From: Mesotoga prima MesG1.Ag.4.2
Lineage (GTDB): Bacteria; Thermotogota; Thermotogae; Petrotogales; Kosmotogaceae
Reading direction: 5' to 3'
Assembly (NCBI RefSeq): GCF_000147715.2
Contig: NC_017934.1
Location: 1,116,001 to 1,180,000 of the forward strand
Length of the DNA stretch: 64,000 bases
Shown: positions 14,891-38,113 of the stretch, piece by piece
How positions within the stretch are numbered: the first letter of the stretch is position 1
How the letters are laid out: each line of letters starts with the position of its first letter
The notes under the pieces: model-generated
Told to the model about the DNA's origin: nothing
Databases searched by the model: none
What the model saw: only the letters and a program-made list of their open reading frames with translations
Position numbers and translations under genes: made by a program

Positions 14891-15561
14891 ATATATCTGT
14901 CATTGTAAACACAGTTGCCGTAATTATAGGTTCTATACTTGGATTGCTCGGCGGAAGACTTCTCAAGGACCGTTATAGAAAGGTTTTCTTCAGTGTCATT
15001 GGAATTCTTACTATGGGTCTAGGAATAGAGATGTTTCTAGATACTAACAGCGTTCTCGTTGTTCTTGGAAGTCTTATCATCGGTGGGGCACTGGGAGAAG
15101 CTCTTGATATTGAGGAAAAGATCGGCAGGCTTGCCGGAAACAAACGCGATGACGAGAACTTCGTGAAAGGATTCATTACGGCATCAGTCCTTTTCGTTGC
15201 GGGACCAATGACCGTAATAGGGTCTCTGAAGGCCGGCCTTTCCGGTGAAAACGAACTTATATTCATCAAGTCGTTGATGGATGGAATTTCCTCTATGATG
15301 CTATCCGCAGCGCTAGGTGAGGGTGTACTTCTTTCAGCAGCAGCTGTGTATCTCGTGCAGGGAGGACTCGTCTCTCTTGCAGGAGTGCTTTCCTTCCTCC
15401 AGGATCCGCTGTATCTAGGGGACTTTTCTGGAGTGGGCGGTATGATGCTTCTTGCATTGGGAATCAGGCTACTTGAAATAAAAGAAATCAGGGTCGGCAA
15501 CTTCCTTCCGGCCCTGATACTATCTCCTGTTCTAACCTGGGTCTCTCTTCTCTTTACCTGA
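14884..15561 (+). CDS. DUF554-family integral membrane protein
   Basis: 225 residues with about six to seven hydrophobic segments and the family motif GALLGE-like IIGGALGEALDIEEK plus FVAGPMTVIGSLKAGLSGE. DUF554 (YdfK-like) has no established function; transport has been suggested. Overlaps the ECF ATPase gene by seven bases, hence co-translated, and converges with korB (8-bp overlap at the 3' ends). Confidence 0.88.
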   Translation: MLNISVIVNTVAVIIGSILGLLGGRLLKDRYRKVFFSVIGILTMGLGIEMFLDTNSVLVVLGSLIIGGALGEALDIEEKIGRLAGNKRDDENFVKGFITASVLFVAGPMTVIGSLKAGLSGENELIFIKSLMDGISSMMLSAALGEGVLLSAAAVYLVQGGLVSLAGVLSFLQDPLYLGDFSGVGGMMLLALGIRLLEIKEIRVGNFLPALILSPVLTWVSLLFT

Positions 15562-16405
15562 AGGCCTCTAACTCACTGGAAACATCGATCGACGATCTCT
15601 CTTTTAAAAGGATTACACCCTTCTTCAGAACTGGATGAAGCTCATGATATGTCGGCTTCTCGTTAAGGTACAGGATTCCCATAGGTATCTTTTCGTCCCA
15701 TTCTAGCGCCTTTTCAAAGGCCTTAACTTTGTCCTTAGGATCGTAACTCGCATCTTTCTCATGGACATCGTAAAGCCTGTCTTTGTAGTACTTGAAAGTG
15801 TTTACCTTGTTGAACGTAACGCATGGCTGCATTATATCGACCACGGAGAAGCCTTTGTGTTTTATCGCAGCCGAAACCACTTTTCGAAAGTGATCCTTGT
15901 CTCCGATGAAGGTCCTTCCTACAAAGGCAGCGTCCATAGTAATAGCCAGCGCAAGGGGATTCAGCGGTTCATTAATCACGCCCTGTAGCTGAGAACTTGT
16001 CTTCTGTCCCTTTCTCGTTGTTGGAGAGCCCTGTCCCTTGGTAAGCCCGTAAATCTGATTATCGTGGATCAAAACGGTGACATCAAAATTCCTTCTAATG
16101 CCGTGGATAAAATGGTTGCCGCCCTCTCCATACATGTCGCCATCACCGGATTCCGCAATCACGGTGAGTTCGGGATTAACAGCCTTTATCGCGAAAGCGA
16201 CTGGAAGGCTTCTACCGTGGAGACCGTTGAAGAAGTTAATATCCAGATAATGAGGCATCTTAGCGGCCTGCCCAATACCAGTCACCATAATGAAGTGAGA
16301 TTTATCGACACCGATCTCCTCCAGGGTACTGGCGAGATTCATTCTGAGGGGAAAGTTCCCGCATCCCGGACACCATGCAGGTTCAACTTCTCTTAGATAA
16401 CTCAT
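15554..16405 (-). CDS. korB: 2-oxoacid:ferredoxin oxidoreductase, beta (TPP-binding) subunit
   Basis: 283 residues. WCPGCG near the N terminus and QPCVTFNK near residue 195 supply cysteines of the iron-sulfur cluster. The thiamine diphosphate motif is GDGDMYGEGGNHFIHGIRRN with IHDNQIYGLTKGQ. The enzyme oxidatively decarboxylates a 2-oxoacid to acyl-CoA and reduces ferredoxin. Together with the fused alpha-gamma subunit upstream (ATGA overlap) it forms a two-subunit enzyme of the 2-oxoglutarate/general 2-oxoacid type; the precise acid is not certain. Confidence 0.93.
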   Translation of the reverse strand: MSYLREVEPAWCPGCGNFPLRMNLASTLEEIGVDKSHFIMVTGIGQAAKMPHYLDINFFNGLHGRSLPVAFAIKAVNPELTVIAESGDGDMYGEGGNHFIHGIRRNFDVTVLIHDNQIYGLTKGQGSPTTRKGQKTSSQLQGVINEPLNPLALAITMDAAFVGRTFIGDKDHFRKVVSAAIKHKGFSVVDIMQPCVTFNKVNTFKYYKDRLYDVHEKDASYDPKDKVKAFEKALEWDEKIPMGILYLNEKPTYHELHPVLKKGVILLKERSSIDVSSELEAFR

Positions 16406-21847: not shown

Positions 21848-22399
21848 TCAGAAGCTTGGAGGACACACCACCCAGATCCCAATCGCTACTTCGTCTCCTA
21901 GATTTCTCCACTTATGGGGTATAGTGCTGCTGTGGGTTATGCTGTCTCCCTCTTCGAGAATCAAGGTACTATCTCCAAGCTGAAGCTCAATCTTACCCTT
22001 CAGCATAATTCCCGACTCAATGCCCTCATGGATGAAGAAATCCTCTGTACCAGCGTCAGGACTCAAATAAGAAATAAACATGGAATATGACTTGTTGGGT
22101 GCTGAAAGAACCTCGTAGTAAAGACCTGGAGCGACCGTGACGGTCATCCTGTCTTCGCGCTTTATTAGGCCTTTCATTGTGTTCTCAGATGAGTTTTGCT
22201 GCACGAGCGAAATAACTGTTTCCCCCATAGCGTTGAGAATCTTCTTCAGCGTATTCAATGAAGGAGAGACCTTTCCGTGTTCGATTTGACTTATCAGACT
22301 GGAGCTCACACCTGAAGTATCGGCCAGCTTTTTTATACTGATTTTTCTGGCCTGCCGCAGTGATCTCAGCTTGTTTCCAATGTTGTCAAGCTCAGTCAT
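21848..22399 (-). CDS. XRE-family regulator with C-terminal cupin domain
   Basis: 183 residues from the ATG at 22397-22399. N-terminal helix-turn-helix: GNKLRSLRQARKISIKKLAD, then GVSSSLISQIEHGKVSPSLNTL. C-terminal cupin (about 110-183) with HEGIESGIMLKGKIELQLGD and SSTIPHKWRNLGDE. This class senses a small molecule through the cupin and controls amino-acid or peptide metabolism genes. The start overlaps the stop of DUF1177 by eight bases, so it is the last gene of the operon and likely its own regulator. GAGGA lies upstream. Confidence 0.92.
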   Translation of the reverse strand: MTELDNIGNKLRSLRQARKISIKKLADTSGVSSSLISQIEHGKVSPSLNTLKKILNAMGETVISLVQQNSSENTMKGLIKREDRMTVTVAPGLYYEVLSAPNKSYSMFISYLSPDAGTEDFFIHEGIESGIMLKGKIELQLGDSTLILEEGDSITHSSTIPHKWRNLGDEVAIGIWVVCPPSF

Positions 22400-23321
22400 T
22401 TTCAAGGTCCTCTGTTGAAAACACCAATCTCGACATGTCGCCATAAAGTCCGCTGATTCTTTCGAACTCAGTATGATCAAAGAGCTTGCACTTGTTTTGC
22501 CCAAACCGTTTTGCGACCTCTAAAGAGAAACGTGCAGCCAACTCTATGTCGAGTTCGTGTGAAGAACCGGTTGCACATCCAGGAACGGCCAGCTCTGTTG
22601 TTATTGCAAGGCCGACCACAGGAACGCTTAATAAAGTACAGGGCTGCATAATACTGTTTATGTGATGAACTCTGTTCCCATATGGCGTAATATCCTGCAT
22701 TGTGATCGGCAAGACTCTTGCAGGTTGACCAGTAACGGATTCGCAAATATCCAGCAAATCATCTGAGACCTTGAGTATATATCCTTCCTTCACAGTTGGC
22801 GTTATAGCTATACCTTTCCAGTTTATCAATCGGTTTCCCTTGGTCGTATCGATTGAAATCACTGCATCAAGGCGCCTCTTGAGCATTGCCTGCAGCGCCT
22901 GCCTTGTTCCTATAGGCGATCCCATGAATGGAACAGGCTCGTGTCGCTGTGTCGGCGCATCTGGGCAGATGTGTGTGGCAACATAGAGATTTCCGGGAAG
23001 TCGGTCTCCCTTATCGCTCGCCTGAGCAGCCTTCAAAGCCAATGCAAGAGCAGCCGCAGCACCATCTCCATCGCTGACAAAACCAATCATTTCAGGTCTT
23101 GCTCCGATTCCACCAAGTTGTCCGATAACTCCAAGAACTGGGAGTGACGGATCCTCTCCTTCGATTAGAATTCGAACGATGTCGGTGCTCCCCTTTTCGC
23201 TGCCAACTTTCTCGATCTCTACAATAACGCCTTCGTATGGTATGAAGAGTTCGGCAACTTCTTTCCCGTTTGCATAAGGGCTATCGAGAATCTCAAGAAC
23301 ATCCATTACCTGCCTAAGCAT
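22392..23321 (-). CDS. DUF1177-family protein
   Basis: 309 residues from the ATG at 23321, which has AGGAGGT at good spacing; an ATG at 23342 lies upstream of that ribosome site. Conserved-looking blocks are LGQLGGIGARPEMIGFVSDG-like GVIGQLGGIGARPEMIGFV, SDGDGAAAALALALK, VATHICPDAPTQRHEPVPF and TELAVPGCATGSSHELD. The SDGDGAA and H-x-C-P stretches recall metal-site motifs of M20/M28/M42 peptidases but this is only a resemblance. Function unknown. In this operon it sits after a dipeptide transporter and an M20 hydrolase, so a role in hydrolysing or sensing the imported compound is inferred. Confidence 0.85.
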   Translation of the reverse strand: MLRQVMDVLEILDSPYANGKEVAELFIPYEGVIVEIEKVGSEKGSTDIVRILIEGEDPSLPVLGVIGQLGGIGARPEMIGFVSDGDGAAAALALALKAAQASDKGDRLPGNLYVATHICPDAPTQRHEPVPFMGSPIGTRQALQAMLKRRLDAVISIDTTKGNRLINWKGIAITPTVKEGYILKVSDDLLDICESVTGQPARVLPITMQDITPYGNRVHHINSIMQPCTLLSVPVVGLAITTELAVPGCATGSSHELDIELAARFSLEVAKRFGQNKCKLFDHTEFERISGLYGDMSRLVFSTEDLEND

Positions 23322-24276
23322 TGGAATTACCTCCTGTGTCATAAAGATGGCATCTTACCTTTCTGTCCCCGACAACCTTGAGTTCTGGTTTTATCGCGCA
23401 AGCCTCAAAAGCCTTTGGGCACCTAGTGATAAACGGGCAGCCTTTGGGCGGATTTACGGGACTGGGTATTTCACCCATAAGAATCTCATTCGCTGCTTTC
23501 TTACTCGGATCAGGCTGAGGGACAGACTCAAGCAGTCCCTGAGTATACGGATGAAGGGGATTATCAATTATCCGATCTACCGGTCCTATTTCCATGATGT
23601 TTCCTAGATACAAAACTGCCACGTGATCCGAAATCTGACTTACGATCTTTAGGTCATGTGTAATGAAGACATAAGTCAGCAAAAATTCCTTCTGCAAGTC
23701 GCCAAGAAGGTTCAACATCTGTGCTTGAACCGAAACGTCAAGAGCCGAGGTGGGTTCATCCAAAACCAGCAATTCCGGCTGCAAAATGAGCGATCTTGCG
23801 ACAGAGACCCTCTGCTTCTGCCCGCCGCTTAATTCGTGAGGGAATTTTTTTATCGTTGAACGATCCAGGCCGACAGAGTCGAGAATAGTCAAAACCTTTT
23901 CTCTTCTCTCCCGTAGATTCCCCAATCTGTGAATTCGTAACCCCTCTTCGATAATCGAAAAGACATTCTTTCTCGGGTTAAGCGAAGCATCCGGATCTTG
24001 AAAAATCATCTGGATGTTTCTGTAATCGGTCTTTGTTCTTCCGATTGGATTTCCTTTATACAGAATCTCACCAGATGATGGCTGATAAGCACCACATATC
24101 AACCTTGCAATGGTGGATTTTCCGGAGCCGCTTTCTCCTACCAAACTGAAAACGCCGCCCTTATCGACTTCGAAGGATACGTCATCAACTGCCTTGAGAA
24201 ACTTAACCGGTTTCCCGAAAATACTATCCTCTATAGGAAATCTCTTTGTAAGGTTTCTAATTTCCAGCAGCTTCAT
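23314..24276 (-). CDS. dppF: Peptide ABC transporter ATPase, DppF/OppF type
   Basis: 320 residues. Walker A GESGSGKST, Q-loop MIFQDPDASLNPRK, signature LSGGQKQRVSVARSL, Walker B LLVLDEPTSALD, and the C-terminal oligopeptide-transport domain with GCPFITRCPKAFEAC. ATG at 24276 follows GAGAGG; an earlier ATG at 24285 is less well placed. Overlaps dppD by 20 bases and DUF1177 by eight. Confidence 0.93.
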   Translation of the reverse strand: MKLLEIRNLTKRFPIEDSIFGKPVKFLKAVDDVSFEVDKGGVFSLVGESGSGKSTIARLICGAYQPSSGEILYKGNPIGRTKTDYRNIQMIFQDPDASLNPRKNVFSIIEEGLRIHRLGNLRERREKVLTILDSVGLDRSTIKKFPHELSGGQKQRVSVARSLILQPELLVLDEPTSALDVSVQAQMLNLLGDLQKEFLLTYVFITHDLKIVSQISDHVAVLYLGNIMEIGPVDRIIDNPLHPYTQGLLESVPQPDPSKKAANEILMGEIPSPVNPPKGCPFITRCPKAFEACAIKPELKVVGDRKVRCHLYDTGGNSNA

Positions 24277-25246
24277 TATTTGCAACCTCTCTACCGTAAA
24301 GCCAGCACCAGACAGTAGATGAACCCACGGAGAATGCAGGCGGTTCCTTTTCAGTGCAAATCTTCATTGCCTTACTGCACCTTGGGTGAAATCGACAGCC
24401 TTTAGGGGGTTTCAGCAACCCTGGAACATTCCCTTGTATGGAAAGAAGCCTTTGCTTTCTCTTCTCGGGAATCAATTTAGGTAAAGAATCAAGTAGACCG
24501 AGAGTATAAGGATGCTTCGGATTCTTGAAAATGTCTTCGACGGACGCATTCTCGACCTGTTTCCCAGCGTACATAACCATCACTCTGTCTGCAATCTGCG
24601 CGATGACTCCGAGATCGTGTGTAATGAAAATCAAAGAAGTCTCGAACTCCTCTTTCAGTTCGCGGAACATATAAAGAATCTGAGACTGAATTGTCACGTC
24701 AAGAGCCGTAGTCGGTTCATCGGCAATCAGGAGCTTTGGATTGCAAAGCATTGCCATGGCAATCATGATTCTCTGGCGCATACCTCCGCTATACTCAAAA
24801 GGGTATCGGTTCATGAGATTCTCCGGCGATGGAATTCCAAGATTCTTCATAATCTCAATCGACTTCTCTTTCGCCTCTGGCTTTGTCATATTCATGTGGT
24901 TAACTAGCACCTCGATCAGCTGAGCTCCTATCTTCATCGAGGGGTTGAGTGAATTCAAGGGATTCTGAAAGACCATAGATATCTTTTTTCCCCTTATCTC
25001 CTCTACTTCTTTTAGAAGATTTTTCCCCATGAATTCCATCTTGGCAGCTTTTACTTTGCCGGGAGGAGAAGGTATCAGACCCATCAGTGAAAGCGCAGTC
25101 ACGCTCTTGCCGGAACCGCTTTCGCCGACTATCCCGAGCACCTCCCTTTCGCCCACCGAAAAGCTAATACCGTCCGGGGCTCTCAGTATTCCTTCAGGCA
25201 ACCTGAACTCAACCGTTAGGTCTTCTACCTCAAGAACATGGCTCAA
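24257..25246 (-). CDS. dppD: Peptide ABC transporter ATPase, DppD/OppD type
   Basis: 329 residues. Walker A GESGSGKSV, Q-loop MVFQNPLNSLNPSM, signature YSGGMRQRIMIAMAM, Walker B LLIADEPTTALD. C-terminal cysteines in GCRFHPRCSKAMKIC and VWCWLYG match the spacing seen in DppD proteins known to carry a [4Fe-4S] cluster. Start overlaps the M20 gene stop by four bases. Confidence 0.93.
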   Translation of the reverse strand: MSHVLEVEDLTVEFRLPEGILRAPDGISFSVGEREVLGIVGESGSGKSVTALSLMGLIPSPPGKVKAAKMEFMGKNLLKEVEEIRGKKISMVFQNPLNSLNPSMKIGAQLIEVLVNHMNMTKPEAKEKSIEIMKNLGIPSPENLMNRYPFEYSGGMRQRIMIAMAMLCNPKLLIADEPTTALDVTIQSQILYMFRELKEEFETSLIFITHDLGVIAQIADRVMVMYAGKQVENASVEDIFKNPKHPYTLGLLDSLPKLIPEKRKQRLLSIQGNVPGLLKPPKGCRFHPRCSKAMKICTEKEPPAFSVGSSTVWCWLYGREVANNEAAGN

Positions 25247-26424
25247 AACTCTTTCCTTCTCTCTCTAAAATAATCTGTTACTTCTTCCAACAAGGATCTG
25301 TCAGACAAAAGATCATAGACTGTAAGTGCCATTGCTTTCGCTGCTCTTATCATTGCATTGTAGCCGTACTCTGAATTCGCACAAGAGGCAAATTCCCTTG
25401 TATGCGTCGGAATGTCCCGGTGCTCGGTAATATCTATGTACCCCTGTATCGCAGGCAAAACGTGCGTGACAGAACCTACATCCGTAGAGCCAACTCCCTG
25501 TTCGTACGTCCTCATAGTTGTCTTTTCACCGACGAGCTCGAAATTACTGTCAAGGAGTCGAGCAATTGGAACGTTTACATAGACCTCTTCCATCTGCTCG
25601 GTTTGCTTCAGCTCGAAATCACAGCCTGTAGCCAACGCCCCTGCTTGAACTATCTTCCTAAACTTCTCAGAGACAACGTCGACCTCTTCAATAGACAATG
25701 CCCTTATTCCAATCTCGGCAGCTGTATAATCGGGAATTGTATTGAAGGATTGCCCGCCATTCGTTATTATTCCGTGTATCCGAACTTTCTCTGGAAGCTG
25801 TTGACGCAGTGCAGAAATACCATTAAACATCTGAATCACAGCATCGAGCGCATTAACGCCCTTCGCAGGATCCGCAGCAGCGTGAGCCGGTTTCCCAAAG
25901 TATTTTATTGAGAACGTCTTCAAAGCATACGAAATGTCAAAACCCGTACTCATTGAAGCGGGGTGAATAATCAGAGCAGCGCTCATATCATCAAAGACGC
26001 CCTTTTCAACAAGAACCCTCTTTGCTCCTCCCCTTTCTTCAGCGGGGCAACCTACGACAACAATAGAACCTCCAGTTTCCTCGATCGCACCGCTTTCCTT
26101 AAGAGCGATAGCCGCTGCAATACTAGTGGTACAGATCAGATTGTGACCACAAGCATGGCCAATTTCTGGCAGCGCATCATATTCGGCCATCAGGGCTATT
26201 TTCGGACCAGAGTTACCGTAACTCGCAATAAAGGAAGTGGGCAGCTCCTCAATAGCCGGGCTGACAACCTCAAATCCAGAGGCCTTAAGGAAACTCTTTA
26301 GAGCCTCAGAAGACTTGTATTCCTCGTAAGAGAGCTCAGAGAAGCCAAAGATCTTTTTGCCCAGCTCAATTACATCGCTAGCAATTTTGTCAACAGTGTG
26401 GATTATTTCCCTTTTCTTGTCCAT
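25243..26424 (-). CDS. M20-family amidohydrolase (AbgB/aminoacylase-like)
   Basis: 393 residues. Zinc-site motifs: AEYDALPEIGHACGHNL (Asp and His ligands), GCPAEERGGAK (catalytic Glu pair) and an HPA block, followed by the dimerisation lid domain (KYFGKPAHAAADPAKGVNALD). Closest in motif to M20D enzymes such as AbgB, which split amide bonds of p-aminobenzoyl-glutamate or N-acyl amino acids. Within the peptide-transport operon it probably hydrolyses the imported substrate in the cytoplasm. It could alternatively serve as an N-acetyl-diaminopimelate deacetylase, which the lysine operon lacks. Confidence 0.92.
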   Translation of the reverse strand: MDKKREIIHTVDKIASDVIELGKKIFGFSELSYEEYKSSEALKSFLKASGFEVVSPAIEELPTSFIASYGNSGPKIALMAEYDALPEIGHACGHNLICTTSIAAAIALKESGAIEETGGSIVVVGCPAEERGGAKRVLVEKGVFDDMSAALIIHPASMSTGFDISYALKTFSIKYFGKPAHAAADPAKGVNALDAVIQMFNGISALRQQLPEKVRIHGIITNGGQSFNTIPDYTAAEIGIRALSIEEVDVVSEKFRKIVQAGALATGCDFELKQTEQMEEVYVNVPIARLLDSNFELVGEKTTMRTYEQGVGSTDVGSVTHVLPAIQGYIDITEHRDIPTHTREFASCANSEYGYNAMIRAAKAMALTVYDLLSDRSLLEEVTDYFRERRKEF

Positions 26425-26434
26425 ATAACCTCCT

Positions 26435-27274
26435 TCACGACCTCAATCTGGGATCTAGCACGTCTCTCAAACCATCTCCAAGAAGATTGAATCCCAAACA
26501 GGAAACAAGGATCGCAATTCCCGGAAAGATCGCCATATTTGGAGCGGTTTGAAGATAATTCTTGGCCTCGCTCAACATGCTTCCCCAAGAAGGTGTTGGC
26601 GGCTGAATCCCAAGGCCCAGAAAACTCAACGTTGCCTCGCTGATTATCGCACCGGCGAAGTTCAAAGAAGCATATATGATTATTGTTGGAATGATGTTCG
26701 GCAGGATGTGAAACATGATTACCCAGAGATTTGATCCTCCCATCAATCTCGCCGCAGTAACGAACTCCTCGTTTCTGTAAGTCAGGACTGCGCTCCTAAC
26801 AACTCGCGAGAAGCTAGGTATCATAACAATGCCGATAGCGAGCATCGCATTGAAGAGTCCTGGGCCGAGAACCGCCATCATTGCAATGGCCAATAGAACG
26901 TATGGAAAAGACAACAGAGCGTCCATTATTCGCATAATTATCGAATCGACCAGACCTCCGAAAAAGCCGGCTATAACACCGATTACTGTGCCGAGAAGAG
27001 AACCTATGCCCACAGCTACTATACCAACCATTAGAGACACTCTACTACCATAGACCAGTCTGCTGAAAAGGTCACGACCATAGTCATCCGTTCCAAACAA
27101 GTGGCCCCCTTCTCCGGGCAGAGCAAAGATGTGCATGAAGTCCATATCCTCAACTTCATGTGTTGCAATCAGTGGTGAGAACAAGGCAAGCACCAGGATT
27201 GCCAAAATCACAAAAAGCCCCACAGCAGCCTGCTTGCTACGTAGGAGTCTCCTCAAGAATTGTGCAGCTCTCAT
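26435..27274 (-). CDS. dppC: Peptide ABC transporter permease, DppC type
   Basis: 279 residues, six membrane segments. N-terminal cytoplasmic stretch, GEGGHLFGTDDYGRDLFSRL motif typical of DppC/OppC, and a permease core ending LGDGLRDVLDPRLRS, the classical DppC C terminus. Overlaps dppB by one base. Confidence 0.95.
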   Translation of the reverse strand: MRAAQFLRRLLRSKQAAVGLFVILAILVLALFSPLIATHEVEDMDFMHIFALPGEGGHLFGTDDYGRDLFSRLVYGSRVSLMVGIVAVGIGSLLGTVIGVIAGFFGGLVDSIIMRIMDALLSFPYVLLAIAMMAVLGPGLFNAMLAIGIVMIPSFSRVVRSAVLTYRNEEFVTAARLMGGSNLWVIMFHILPNIIPTIIIYASLNFAGAIISEATLSFLGLGIQPPTPSWGSMLSEAKNYLQTAPNMAIFPGIAILVSCLGFNLLGDGLRDVLDPRLRS

Positions 27275-28233
27275 TATTGTGATCCTCCATAAGCGACCCT
27301 AATTTTCGGATTGAGAAAGGCATAGAGCATATCCACAATGAAATTGACAAGTATATATATGAAGGCAATGACCAAGACTTCACCCTGTACTAGCAAGAAG
27401 TCTCTTCTCAATATTGCGTCTATCATCAGCTTGCCCAATCCCGGCAGCGCAAAGACGGTCTCCGTTAAAACTGCACCGGCAAGCAATGTGCCAAGCTGCA
27501 AACCTATGACCGTTACAATAGGAACAAGGGCGTTTCTAAGTGCGTGGTTATACAGGACTAACCTGTTCTTCAATCCTTTTGCCATCGCGGTCCTCACGTA
27601 ATCCTGCCTGAGAACCTCTAACATGCTCGATCGAGTGAATCTGGTTATGATTCCCATGGACTGAATTCCAAGAGCGGTAGAAGGCAGAATAATATGCTTT
27701 ACAACATCCCAAAGTCCGTTCGAGATGTTCCCAATTCCAACCGCGGGAAGCCACCCCAATTGCAATGCAAAGACTATTATCAGTATCATCCCAAACCAGA
27801 ATATTGGAACAGAGATTCCAACCAAGGAGAGAATCGTTATACTGAAGTCCACAAAACTATCGTGCTTAGTTGCGGCAAGAATGCCTGCCGGTATCCCGAT
27901 TATAGAAGCAATGAATAGAGCGCTAACGCTCAGAAGAAGCGTTGTCGGAAGCCTCTCTACAATCAGGGAGATTACATCCTGCTTATATATGAGAGACTTA
28001 CCAAAATTACCTGTGAACACCCTCTTCAAATAAAGCGCAAACTGAGTGAAAACAGGCTGGTCGAGCCCTAGCTCGGCTCTGAAGCGCTCTATATCTTGAG
28101 CCCTGGCGCCTGGTCCTAAAAGAACCGCCGCAGGATCTCCAGGAATAAGCTTCATCAAAAAGAAAACCGTCAAAAGCACAAAGAACAGTGTGGGAACAAT
28201 CTGGAGCAACCTTCTGACAATGAACTTTCTCAC
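27274..28233 (-). CDS. dppB: Peptide ABC transporter permease, DppB type
   Basis: 319 residues, six membrane segments, N terminus RKFIVRRLLQIVPTLFFVLL typical of DppB. GDPAAVLLGP motif present. Start is GTG 28231-28233 with GAGGGAG upstream. A perfect stem-loop separates it from the binding-protein gene. Confidence 0.95.
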   Translation of the reverse strand: MRKFIVRRLLQIVPTLFFVLLTVFFLMKLIPGDPAAVLLGPGARAQDIERFRAELGLDQPVFTQFALYLKRVFTGNFGKSLIYKQDVISLIVERLPTTLLLSVSALFIASIIGIPAGILAATKHDSFVDFSITILSLVGISVPIFWFGMILIIVFALQLGWLPAVGIGNISNGLWDVVKHIILPSTALGIQSMGIITRFTRSSMLEVLRQDYVRTAMAKGLKNRLVLYNHALRNALVPIVTVIGLQLGTLLAGAVLTETVFALPGLGKLMIDAILRRDFLLVQGEVLVIAFIYILVNFIVDMLYAFLNPKIRVAYGGSQ

Positions 28234-28292: not shown

Positions 28293-29828
28293 CTATTCTA
28301 CGTAAACGTTAGTTCCCGGTGCAAATACTCTGATCGTCATATCCGAAGAAACCGTGAAGCCTTTTACCTTGTCACTAACGCCCATGACAACGAGTTTGTG
28401 ATAGCCTGGGAAAAAGATCCTGTCTTTCATCACGAGTTCCTCCGCTTTCCTATAGTACATAATCCTTTCGTCTTGATCAGCAGAGGATTCACCCAGCTCT
28501 ATGTACTTGTCGACTTCGGGGTTGTTGTATCTACCGCCATTTCCATAAGTTCCCGCAGTCGAAGAGTGGAACATGTAGTACATGAAGAATTCGGGGTCGG
28601 GATACCATGTCCAACCGATTGCATAAATGTCTGCTTCTCCCTTACTGGATACTTCAACAAAACTTCCCCACTCGAGAGAAATGACTTCGAGATCGATTCC
28701 GACCTGCTTCAGCATCGACTGCATAACGATGGCCATCTTTCTTCTATTCGGGTCGTCGGAAGTATACATCTTAAGCTTAAGTCCATCTGCATATCCGGCG
28801 TCCTTAAGGATCTGCTTCGCGCCTTCGGGATCGTAAGGAGTGTAGAAATCCTGAACATCCGGATTGTATGCCCACGATCCGGGAGGGATAGGCCCGTATG
28901 CAGGAACACCGCTCTCATTCGGGAAGATGACTTTAGCTATTTGTGTTACATCTATTGCCTTGAAAATCGCTTCTCTTACCTTGGGATCGGTGGTCGGGCC
29001 CTTCGTAGCGTTCATGTAAGCGGCATAGATGTTGTTTCCCCCCACCATTATTGCCTCGACATTGGGATCGGCCTTTACCTTAGGAATGTCCTGATCGAGA
29101 ATATCGCTTGAAATGTCTACCTGTCCGCTTAGAAGAGCAAGAGTCAAAACTGCTTTGTCTGGGATGAACTTATAGGTAAGATTCTTCACATAGGGTTTTT
29201 CACCCCAGTAATCTTCGTATCTCTCAAAGGACATGTGGTCATCCTTGACCCATTCCTTCAAAACGTACGGACCAGAGCCGATCGGATGAAGCACGAATTC
29301 GTCGCCCCAGCCTTCGACTTCTTCTTTAGGAACTATAGCTGCTCCAATGTCGGTAAGCACGGTAAGGAATGGAGCATAAGGATACTGAAGAGTAATCTTG
29401 ACAGTATAAGTGTCGACAACTTCAATGGTGTCTATCATGTATATTCTCACCATCGGAGAGATCTCCATCTCTCTGTCGAAGCTATACTTCACATCTTCGG
29501 CAGTCACGTTACGCCCGTCTTGGAACTTCCCCTTCTGGAAGAAGACATTCTCTCTGAGTTTGAATGTCCAAACCTTGAGATCATCGCTCACCGTCCAAGA
29601 TTCGGCAATTACTGGTTTAATCTCTTTGACATCGGCAGTGTAAGCGACCAGCGTCTCGAAGACATTTCTCATTACCTGCGACGAAGCCAAATCCTGATAC
29701 ATCGCCGGATCCATTGTCGTCGGATTCTGGTCAGTTCCAACAACAAGTTCCGAATCATACTTGTCCGTTGCAAAAGCCGAGAATGATAGTACGACTACGA
29801 GGAGCAGAATTACCAAATACTTTCTCAT
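28293..29828 (-). CDS. Dipeptide/oligopeptide-binding protein (SBP family 5)
   Basis: 511 residues from ATG 29828 (AAGGAGGT upstream; an ATG at 29846 precedes the ribosome site). Signal peptide MRKYLVILLLVVVLSFSAFA with no lipobox. Family 5 features: ELVVGTDQNPTTMDP, the LAESW-type block VIAESWTVSDDLKVWTFKLR, GRNVTAEDVKYSFDR. It binds a peptide-like ligand outside the membrane for DppBCDF. Ligand unknown. Confidence 0.95.
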   Translation of the reverse strand: MRKYLVILLLVVVLSFSAFATDKYDSELVVGTDQNPTTMDPAMYQDLASSQVMRNVFETLVAYTADVKEIKPVIAESWTVSDDLKVWTFKLRENVFFQKGKFQDGRNVTAEDVKYSFDREMEISPMVRIYMIDTIEVVDTYTVKITLQYPYAPFLTVLTDIGAAIVPKEEVEGWGDEFVLHPIGSGPYVLKEWVKDDHMSFERYEDYWGEKPYVKNLTYKFIPDKAVLTLALLSGQVDISSDILDQDIPKVKADPNVEAIMVGGNNIYAAYMNATKGPTTDPKVREAIFKAIDVTQIAKVIFPNESGVPAYGPIPPGSWAYNPDVQDFYTPYDPEGAKQILKDAGYADGLKLKMYTSDDPNRRKMAIVMQSMLKQVGIDLEVISLEWGSFVEVSSKGEADIYAIGWTWYPDPEFFMYYMFHSSTAGTYGNGGRYNNPEVDKYIELGESSADQDERIMYYRKAEELVMKDRIFFPGYHKLVVMGVSDKVKGFTVSSDMTIRVFAPGTNVYVE

Positions 29829-29842
29829 ACAATACCTCCTTT

Positions 29843-30445
29843 TCACACTATGGTGCGAAGAAATTCCCCCACGATTCTTCTTGCTGAAATAACTGTTCCT
29901 AAAGCGACTTCTTGAATCCTTGACTCATGGTCCAATCCATAACCCATGCAATCAAGATAGATATACTTTGAATCGGTAAGACCGCTAGGTATTGAGGGGC
30001 TTCCCTCATAAGGCGAAAAGCTGAAGACCTCAAGTCGCGTAGAAAGTCCTTTCCATCTCCGTGCAAGCGGTTCTTGCTTCTTCTCAGGCACAACTACTGC
30101 TAGACTTTCGAAAGGGCCCTGAGAGCGTAAGAAAGATCTAATGACCGTATACGGCTCAATATACTTAACTATATTAAACTCACTGGTGCACAAAAGCACT
30201 GTCGCTTCTTTGACTTCAAACGCTAGAAGTTGTTCTCTAACCCATTCCTCGGAAAGTTCAACCTCTCGACCGTCTCGTAAGCGGCTTACCAAAAGATCTT
30301 TCTCGGAGAATGGCGTGACAAAATCCTTCACTTCCATACCATCCAACAAGCCGACCTCTTTGACTTCCAAAGGCTTTCCAATTATTCGAATTAATTCAGG
30401 AACAAGATCATCTCGCGGCGACTGACCAATAGTCAAAAATGTCAT
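29843..30445 (-). CDS. AroM-family protein
   Basis: 200 residues with the AroM hallmark TIGQSPRDDLVPE at the N terminus. Two cysteines sit after predicted beta strands, Cys86 in ATVLLCTSEF and Cys166 in YLDCMGYG, a spacing that recalls two-cysteine Asp/Glu/hydantoin racemases. The name AroM comes from E. coli proximity to aroL and does not define a function. First gene of a nine-gene operon; its stop lies 15 bp before the binding-protein start. Role as a racemase or isomerase of the imported compound is inference. Confidence 0.87.
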   Translation of the reverse strand: MTFLTIGQSPRDDLVPELIRIIGKPLEVKEVGLLDGMEVKDFVTPFSEKDLLVSRLRDGREVELSEEWVREQLLAFEVKEATVLLCTSEFNIVKYIEPYTVIRSFLRSQGPFESLAVVVPEKKQEPLARRWKGLSTRLEVFSFSPYEGSPSIPSGLTDSKYIYLDCMGYGLDHESRIQEVALGTVISARRIVGEFLRTIV

Positions 30446-36602: not shown

Positions 36603-36709
36603 AACAATCGCCTCTCTAGTCCGCTAAACTAACTTAATATCATACAACATTTCAGGGGAAAGTGCGATGAATTTCCGAAAAGCATTTCAAGAGTCTTTCC
36701 TCTCCAATG

Positions 36710-36715
36710 TATAAT
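36710..36715 (+). promoter_or_regulatory. Candidate -10 box of the patatin gene
   Basis: TATAAT preceded by ATG-type sequence (AATGTATAAT), about 50 bp before the chosen start. No convincing -35, so confidence is limited. Confidence 0.4.
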
Positions 36716-36766
36716 AATATCATCAATTCAGCTTTTCCGAATCCAAACCAACACCGGAGAAGGATT

Positions 36767-38113
36767 ATGAGAAAGATTGTTGCCATTATGCTCTTGTTTG
36801 CCGTTGCAAGTACTTCCATGCCCGTTGCAGTCGTCTTTTCAGGTGGCGGAGGTAGAGGGGCGTACGAGATCGGGGTTTATGGAGCTCTGCTGGATCTTGG
36901 ACAGGATATCGAGGGGATCTATGGGGCCTCTGTCGGGGCCTTGAATGCCGCCGGATTGATAAGCGAAGGATTTGAGGCGGCCAGAGACTTGTGGTGCAGT
37001 ATGGATTATTTAGAGCTCATGAATGCCTCTCCGCAACTATATGAACTGATTCAGGGGAATATTGCGCAGCTTGACACTCTTGAACTGGCATCTGCAATGA
37101 GGGCTCTTACTTCGAACAATGGCATTGATATAGAACCGTTGAGAAACAAGATGAAGGAGCTCATTGCTGAGGAAGAGGTAAGAGAGAGCGAGATTGAACT
37201 TGGAATCGTACTCTACTCACTGAGTGAAATGAAGTCCTATGCTCTTTACAAAGCCTCCATACCAGAAGGAAAGCTTGTTGACTTTGTTCTGGCAAGCGCA
37301 AACTTCCCTGCCTTCACAAGAGAAGAGATAGATGGAGAGGTCTTCATAGACGGCGGTGTTTACTCGAATTTTCCACTCTTCATGGCGAAAGAAAGGGGTC
37401 ACAGGGATGTCGTAGCCGTTGACCTTATTGGCATGTACTTCGGAGACTCTCTTGCTTACGTAAATATGTTTACCGACGGAATGGATGTGACGCTCATTCA
37501 ACCTTCCGAACAGTTTGGAACAGTCATGACGTTCGATTCCGAAGTCTCGAAGAATTATCTTATTTGTGGTTATCTCGATACGATGAAGGCTTATGAAGTC
37601 TTACGGGGCGAAAAATACTTCATATTCGGGGATGACGATCCGTTGCGGGACCATTTCCTGTCCCTTGACAGTGAGTCTCGAATCGAAGCCCTGAAACTAC
37701 TGGGACTTGACGGAGTAAAAGGCGAGTGCGCCGAGTACCATTACTACCGACAATTCATTCCCTGGCTGGAGAGTACGTTGAAAAGGCCATACATGGGGAC
37801 AAGCAAGCTAGTCTCATCGGTTCTCGAAGAGATGGCTGACTTTCTCGAAGTCGAAAGGGTGATCGCCTACTCGCCTTCGGGTCTTCTGGGGGCGGTCCTG
37901 GCAGCATACAGAGCCGGTGACTTTCGAGATGAGCGAGATCTGAACTACCTCACTATTTACAAGAGGCTTCTCGTTTTCCTTGAGTATCTTCATTGGCAGA
38001 AGCCTTTTGAAGCGCAGAGTTCCGCTGAGTTCAGATCCTTTCAAGAACTCTTTCAGAGTTCCGTTGGCCTTTTGGAACATACCTACTCGCCGCGGGGCCA
38101 TATATCTCACTGA
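36767..38113 (+). CDS. Secreted patatin-like phospholipase
   Basis: 448 residues from ATG 36767 (GGAGAAGG upstream). N-terminal hydrophobic signal MRKIVAIMLLFAVASTSMP. Patatin signature: oxyanion loop SGGGGRGAYEIG, nucleophile elbow GASVG, and catalytic Asp in DGGVYSNFP. The C-terminal 150 residues have no recognised domain. Serine lipase acting on membrane lipids, likely outside the cytoplasmic membrane. The 3' end overlaps the convergent GNAT gene by 83 bp. Confidence 0.93.
   Translation: MRKIVAIMLLFAVASTSMPVAVVFSGGGGRGAYEIGVYGALLDLGQDIEGIYGASVGALNAAGLISEGFEAARDLWCSMDYLELMNASPQLYELIQGNIAQLDTLELASAMRALTSNNGIDIEPLRNKMKELIAEEEVRESEIELGIVLYSLSEMKSYALYKASIPEGKLVDFVLASANFPAFTREEIDGEVFIDGGVYSNFPLFMAKERGHRDVVAVDLIGMYFGDSLAYVNMFTDGMDVTLIQPSEQFGTVMTFDSEVSKNYLICGYLDTMKAYEVLRGEKYFIFGDDDPLRDHFLSLDSESRIEALKLLGLDGVKGECAEYHYYRQFIPWLESTLKRPYMGTSKLVSSVLEEMADFLEVERVIAYSPSGLLGAVLAAYRAGDFRDERDLNYLTIYKRLLVFLEYLHWQKPFEAQSSAEFRSFQELFQSSVGLLEHTYSPRGHISH

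Follow-up and report, generated by a model that had tools for sequence, protein, structure and literature searches.

AroM of a peptide-uptake operon in Mesotoga prima carries a conserved cysteine pair that aligns with the catalytic pair of Asp/Glu/hydantoin racemases

The name aroM reportedly goes back to a 1986 sequence paper on the shikimate region of Escherichia coli, and to our knowledge the protein has been without a known function since it was named. A 2024 paper, in the passages drawn on here, states racemase-like predicted structures for AroM proteins and calls the family not experimentally characterised (PMC11055893). The link between AroM and the racemase fold is therefore not new, and we make no claim of novelty for it. 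Among the open-access literature searched, the phrase "AroM family" was met in that paper only, and no activity data for AroM were found. The same passages describe cyclodipeptide-oxidase clusters that contain AroM, DUF917 proteins (taken there for hydantoinases), a hydantoin racemase, and dipeptide ABC and OPT transporters (PMC11055893).

In the excerpts used here, characterised racemases of the Asp/Glu/hydantoin type carry their two cysteines 104–111 residues apart: 104 in NozR (PMC10156859), 105 in KpAllR (Cys79/Cys184) and 109 in OpaE (Cys90/Cys199) (both PMC12661438), and 111 in the glutamate racemase of Bacillus subtilis. OpaE epimerises a peptide derivative with its Cys/Cys pair, and its residual activity is 4.8% in the C90S and at most 0.3% in the C199S variant; in EcL-DER, described in the same excerpt, the pair is unbalanced (Thr83/Cys197) and catalysis is quasi-unidirectional (PMC12661438). 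NozR, a homologue of the Asp/Glu racemases, acts as a D/L isomerase on a cyclic dipeptide, and replacing either cysteine with alanine abolishes its activity (PMC10156859). Set beside AroM by this description, NozR is a member of the racemase superfamily that needs no cofactor, has a Cys/Cys pair and acts on a peptide-derived ring, and it is a model for a possible role of AroM; its pathway is biosynthetic, and it is described as a homologue of the Asp/Glu racemases rather than as an AroM protein (PMC10156859). Arylmalonate decarboxylase has Gly74/Cys188, where related racemases have a second cysteine (excerpt of PMC4996985).

The window analysed here is a stretch of 64,000 nucleotides from the 2.98-Mb genome of Mesotoga prima MesG1.Ag.4.2 (NC_017934.1, positions 1,116,001 to 1,180,000). 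A preliminary description of its sequence had placed aroM in a dipeptide-type uptake operon, rightly so, and this operon is conserved in Thermotogota. The features are as follows.

29843..30445, minus strand: aroM, first gene of the operon, 200 aa, PF07302, with only two cysteines
30188..30190, minus strand: codon of Cys86 in LLCTSEF, the predicted first catalytic thiol, invariant in the alignment and paired with a racemase cysteine
29948..29950, minus strand: codon of Cys166 in LDCMGY, the predicted second catalytic thiol, invariant in the alignment and paired with a racemase cysteine
28293..29846, minus strand: family-5 extracellular solute-binding protein of the dipeptide type; the ORF shares 4 bases with the end of aroM
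27274..28233, minus strand: DppB-type permease (family scan)
26435..27274, minus strand: DppC-type permease (family scan)
25243..26424, minus strand: M20-type amidohydrolase (TIGR01891 over the cut-off)
24257..25246, minus strand: DppD-type ATPase (family scan)
23314..24285, minus strand: DppF-type ATPase (family scan)
22392..23342, minus strand: DUF1177 protein (PF06675, 403.8 bits)
21848..22405, minus strand: regulator with an XRE-type helix-turn-helix and a cupin domain, with a start homologous to that in L018 (185 aa); the listed ORF starts at 22504

Sixteen AroM regions of Thermotogota, the window included, were compared. The order aroM, binding protein, DppB, M20, two ATPases, DUF1177 and regulator recurs in 12 of the 16 (DppC was outside the search). 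Three regions are on contigs no longer than 5.4 kb, and for two of these genomes more of the operon, including DUF1177, is found on another contig (L117 and L118). The L065 region, on a 9.5-kb contig, is arranged differently: it includes DUF917 and a racemase, and M20 is absent from that contig. A plasmid of Paenibacillus guangzhouensis holds the same set of transporter, M20, DUF1177 and AroM genes as the window, in another order. Compared with the published cyclodipeptide-oxidase clusters, AroM loci share the companions DUF917, dipeptide ABC transporters and OPT transporters, and the window operon has M20 and DUF1177 in place of DUF917 (passages of PMC11055893).

The window protein matches PF07302 over its full length (110.8 bits against a curated cut-off of 23.8, model positions 1–216 of 219, in the family scan); E. 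coli AroM, a member of the same family, scores 255.5 bits against the same model. The N-terminal motif TIGQxPRxD, a label taken from the present alignment, reads TIGQSPRDD in the window protein, whose closest relatives, at 91% (Kosmotogaceae) and 83% (Mesotoga) identity, both come from metagenome assemblies. The two cysteines pointed out in the preliminary description are indeed the only ones in the protein, and hydrophobic, strand-like runs precede both, as judged by eye.

Conservation of the pair across AroM, which had been named as a check on the racemase idea, was found in two samples. In a hand-chosen alignment of 23 sequences, from which enteric AroM and LuxR fusions were left out, ten columns are invariant (G7, P10, R11, G32, D35, G59, C86, P120, P145, and C166); its members are 20–83% identical to the window protein and come from Thermotogota, Bacilli, Gamma- and Alphaproteobacteria, one haloarchaeon, and two further groups treated as phyla. 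A broader survey gave 114 hits that reduced to 65 distinct segments, four of which were set aside because one or both sites were not aligned (three fragments and one divergent Martelella protein with its second site in a gap). The remaining 61 carry Cys/Cys in 53 cases, Ser/Cys in four, and Ser/Ala and Ser/Ser in two each; at a 70% identity cut (n = 39) the counts are 33, 3, 1, and 2, respectively, in a sample weighted towards Thermotogota and one other phylum. With 53 of 61 segments Cys/Cys, the pair occurs well beyond chance. AroM itself was absent from a single-genome phylum reached through a GcrA search, and none was found in two scans of viral contigs.

The link to the racemases was carried by profiles. 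In an hhalign comparison with four PF01177 racemases whose genes lie near aroM, the AroM profile gave an E value of 1.2e-6 and a probability of 90.8, which is similarity at the level of families, and paired LLCTSEF with the racemase motif LSCAADP and LDCMGY with FSCTGF; the single control, against DUF1177, gave an E value of 0.81. By conservation and by this pairing, Cys86 and Cys166 correspond to the two catalytic cysteines, one per half, that mark the superfamily. Among solved-structure sequences the best match of the AroM profile was the hydantoin racemase 2eq5 (E value of 0.009), with both cysteine stretches aligned, in a weak match made of segments of 6.0 and 10.6 bits. E. coli AroM matched PF01177 with an E value of 3.8e-5, and one Martelella AroM matched it as well, both short of the curated cut-off. 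A local AroM profile matched four racemase-like proteins (E values of 1.1e-5 to 9.4e-4), reaching them mainly by its C-terminal half, which fell onto both halves of the targets. Alignment with a single racemase of the same genome was not convincing (hhalign E value of 0.016, probability 2.8) and was offset, with the second half of AroM on the first half of the racemase. An AlphaFold model of AroM built from three near-identical sequences (the window, L018, and L019) had a pLDDT of 32.3, too low for a usable structure.

A quite different explanation is that the cysteines are conserved for structural reasons or as a by-product of close relatedness, in a protein whose function has nothing to do with racemases. 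It would fit the behavior of the window protein taken alone, for which no match was found to PF01177 (family scan, E value up to 1) or to solved-structure sequences (E value up to 10). We regard it as very improbable, because the pair is kept in bacteria of several phyla and in one haloarchaeon at about 20–30% identity, the profile match sets cysteine on cysteine, and published structure predictions, in the passages drawn on here, agree on a racemase fold (PMC11055893).

The preliminary description had called the two cysteines "spaced like" a racemase pair. Profile alignment does equate both cysteines with those of the 2eq5/KpAllR group, but the spacing does not agree: the cysteines are 80 residues apart in the window protein, against 104–111 in the characterised racemases. 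Nor does the window protein reach PF01177 by itself. In a Klebsiella plasmid AroM the cysteines are 92 residues apart, and the uncharacterised racemase adjoining it has a spacing of 98. The equivalence of the AroM and racemase cysteines is thus based on profile alignment, not on equal distance. The link to the racemases itself was supported by the profile–profile pairing, by the weak alignment with 2eq5, and by the predicted fold in the 2024 paper as far as its passages go (PMC11055893); the cysteines proved to be conserved, and no evidence of a different fold was found. Judged on sequence comparison, the earlier interpretation is right on the family resemblance and unproven on the reaction.

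Since the AroM cysteines align with the catalytic pair of the racemases, AroM probably inverts the handedness of something imported. We consider it likely that the window AroM is an active racemase or epimerase that works with two thiols and no cofactor, on the architecture of the Asp/Glu/hydantoin racemases. The window genome encodes two PF01177 proteins elsewhere, one MurI-like and the other of the aspartate-racemase type, as judged by eye; AroM is therefore probably unneeded as a glutamate or aspartate racemase, and a role as the only such enzyme of the cell was rejected.

The AroM forms that lack one or both cysteines bear on the reaction. All four Ser/Cys rows are enteric AroM proteins whose genes adjoin aroL and yaiA (E. 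coli, Klebsiella, Enterobacter, and Salmonella; L032, L033, L035, and L113). In them serine replaces Cys86, the reverse of the pattern in Martelella, where two divergent AroM proteins, both PF07302, keep the first cysteine motif (L112:7989-8768 and 15091-15894) and apparently have Gly-Tyr-Gly at the second site, as judged by eye. The second Martelella gene lies directly before a creatininase gene, and an Asp/Glu racemase gene is in the same stretch as both. The enteric form thus combines Ser/Cys with a shikimate-gene context, whereas the window AroM has both thiols and a peptide-uptake operon; by analogy with EcL-DER, the enteric pair may be an unbalanced active-site pattern. The widespread AroM keeps the full catalytic pair and the enteric form has lost half of it, so that E. 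coli AroM may be a poor model. Because some members are without one or both cysteines, racemase activity does not follow from the fold by itself.

Another reaction of the superfamily, such as cis–trans isomerisation, decarboxylation, or a lyase-type step, could be carried out on the racemase fold with both thiols present, one cysteine acting as the nucleophile or proton donor. The superfamily is functionally broad, as arylmalonate decarboxylase, with glycine at the first site and only the second cysteine, illustrates in the excerpt available (PMC4996985); the Ser/Cys state of enteric AroM makes a one-cysteine activity conceivable within the family, and DUF917 and HyuA-type ring enzymes are among the AroM neighbours. 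One-cysteine chemistry would not, however, need both cysteines to be kept in Thermotogota and most other AroM proteins, and the decarboxylase differs from its racemase relatives precisely by the missing cysteine (PMC4996985). We therefore consider this alternative unlikely.

The four Cys-less rows are all alphaproteobacterial AroM proteins with a C-terminal extension, from three genera. A LuxR-type DNA-binding domain was recognized in the three that were scanned; the fourth, L034, is nearly identical to the L027 fusion.

L024:7919-8809: AroM–LuxR fusion, Cys-less
L027:8965-9888: AroM–LuxR fusion, Cys-less
L031:8001-8951: AroM–LuxR fusion, Cys-less
L034:7977-8900: AroM with a C-terminal extension, nearly identical to the L027 fusion, Cys-less

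In Neorhizobium (L024) the fusion gene lies directly before a gene for a Cys/Cys AroM. A maximum-likelihood tree of the 61 rows, rooted at the midpoint and accompanied by a tool warning of long branches meeting (the Shinella row included), places the Ser/Cys rows on one branch (100/100) and the Cys-less rows on another (99/88), which is joined to the Neorhizobium Cys/Cys copy (99/93). The cysteine states need three changes on this tree, the minimum, and we read the Cys/Cys state as ancestral in AroM. The fusions should, by analogy with the racemases, be inactive; catalysis would be dispensable in them, and such a fusion may have arisen as a sensor through the inactivation of a racemase.

The fusions bring in the possibility that the window AroM is itself non-catalytic and controls the operon by binding a small molecule, as a sensor or chaperone whose cysteine pair is a redox or metal site. 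They do indicate that an AroM domain can serve as a sensor, and enteric aroM adjoins yaiA and the shikimate kinase gene aroL. Against this, the LuxR-fused proteins have lost both cysteines (four of four rows, three of them scanned for the DNA-binding domain, in three genera), so that sensing needs no thiols; in every one of the 53 Cys/Cys rows the AroM domain is followed by at most 40 residues; and the window operon has its own XRE-cupin regulator. A sensor or chaperone role for the window protein is accordingly quite improbable. The natural Cys-less fusions offer a route to the AroM ligand. Neither the pattern of cysteine loss nor the fusions were met in the open-access literature, in a search not aimed at LuxR or fusions; what the present analysis adds is a survey of the active-site residues, the sensor-like fusions without cysteines, and the coupling of AroM to DUF1177 and DUF917.

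In Thermotogota, AroM was found in 16 of 103 genomes and DUF1177 in 16 of 103, with both in 15 of the 17 that have either (Fisher p = 6e-16; this and the following p values ignore shared ancestry and so overstate independence). The two are on one contig in 13 of these 15 genomes, 5.7–6.7 kb apart; the exceptions to co-occurrence are G060, with DUF1177 and no AroM, and G030, 78% complete, with AroM and no DUF1177. In a second phylum the partner is DUF917: AroM is present in 27 of 63 genomes, DUF917 in 26, and both in 25 of the 28 with either (p = 3.5e-14), on one contig in 16 genomes at a distance of 0.1–7.7 kb. DUF1177 is present there in six of 63 genomes, five of them with AroM (p = 0.08). 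DUF917 was found in 14 of the 103 Thermotogota genomes; a profile search (E value up to 0.001) did not find it in the window genome, and a coupling of AroM with DUF917 there was rejected. AroM proteins linked to DUF1177 or DUF917 are the ones to study for activity.

As to G060, a 19.5-kb stretch (L116) holds DUF1177 and neither AroM nor the other operon genes searched for; its genus, g25, also includes genomes with the whole set. In a plasmid collection, DUF1177 was found in seven records, five with AroM beside it. The two remaining records are from Planococcus and have identical match scores, and the one examined has DUF917 and hydantoinase genes and no annotated AroM nearby.

Outside Thermotogota, peptide transporters and enzymes that hydrolyse amides or rings are frequent neighbours of AroM. 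In 40 of 41 given regions, as raw counts with no random-region baseline, we found DUF917 in 23, HyuA-type proteins in 19, a binding protein and a Dpp ATPase in 18 each, a DppB-type permease in 17, GGT in 10, DUF1177 in six, a racemase and PepE in five each, OPT in four, M20 in three, and IclR in two. Four genomes give two regions each, and three regions hold LuxR fusions; the table leaves out L034 and the enteric aroL loci (L032, L033, L035, and L113), and L112 had no AroM at its threshold. The neighbourhood differs in enteric bacteria and Martelella. The DUF917 and HyuA-type proteins that adjoin AroM in groups outside Thermotogota provide a likeness to hydantoin racemases by context. DUF917 is now S-Me-THD-like in Pfam, and two copies that were scanned matched NCBIfam thiohydantoin desulfurase models below the cut-off. 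A six-sequence profile of DUF1177 gave no solved-structure match (E value up to 10), and an AlphaFold model from two sequences had a pLDDT of 30.3, likewise too low to be usable. With no solved-structure match, a hydrolase role for DUF1177 is suggested by its context only.

Here, we propose how a two-thiol racemase could work in the window operon. The Dpp-type ABC transporter would import a compound, and the substrate of AroM would be this compound or a derivative of it, probably a peptide-derived, possibly cyclic, amide; candidates are a hydantoin-like ring, a cyclic dipeptide, a dipeptide containing a D-residue, and an N-acyl amino acid. Cys86 and Cys166 would lie on opposite faces of the substrate in a cleft between two pseudo-symmetric domains. 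One thiolate would take the acidic Cα proton, and the other thiol would give one back from the opposite side. The M20 amidohydrolase, and perhaps DUF1177, would then hydrolyse the amide of the usable epimer. With AroM, an enantioselective hydrolase could draw on both enantiomers or on a racemising ring; hydantoin racemase serves hydantoinase and carbamoylase in the same way. The preliminary description had AroM racemise or isomerise the released product; as to the order of the steps, it could equally act on the cyclic or acylated form before hydrolysis. A cyclic amide is at best a doubtful assignment for the substrate; it is drawn from DUF917 and HyuA neighbours in other groups, not from the window operon itself.

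A wider scheme is offered tentatively. AroM may belong to an undescribed catabolism of peptide-derived cyclic amides in which it inverts the substrate, DUF1177 and DUF917 are the partner hydrolases, and the Ser/Cys enteric form and the Cys-less LuxR sensors descend from a Cys/Cys ancestor. The enteric form would then possibly be a one-directional or altered enzyme, and the Cys-less AroM–LuxR fusions would be one-component transcription factors that respond to the same compound.

Some minor observations concern the surroundings of these genes. On a 44.7-kb Paenibacillus plasmid (L020:800-17655), phage head and tail genes come directly after the Dpp/M20/DUF1177/AroM block, and the plasmid is possibly a phage-plasmid carrying a metabolic operon. 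A conjugative Klebsiella plasmid (L021:5595-11002) has IclR, an OPT transporter, DUF1177, AroM, PepE, and a racemase in this order between transposase genes, an arrangement like that of a mobile catabolic cassette. Elsewhere in the window, an ORF at 36707-38113 has a start that resembles secreted patatin-like lipases, with GGGGRGAYEIG and GASVG motifs, as judged by eye.
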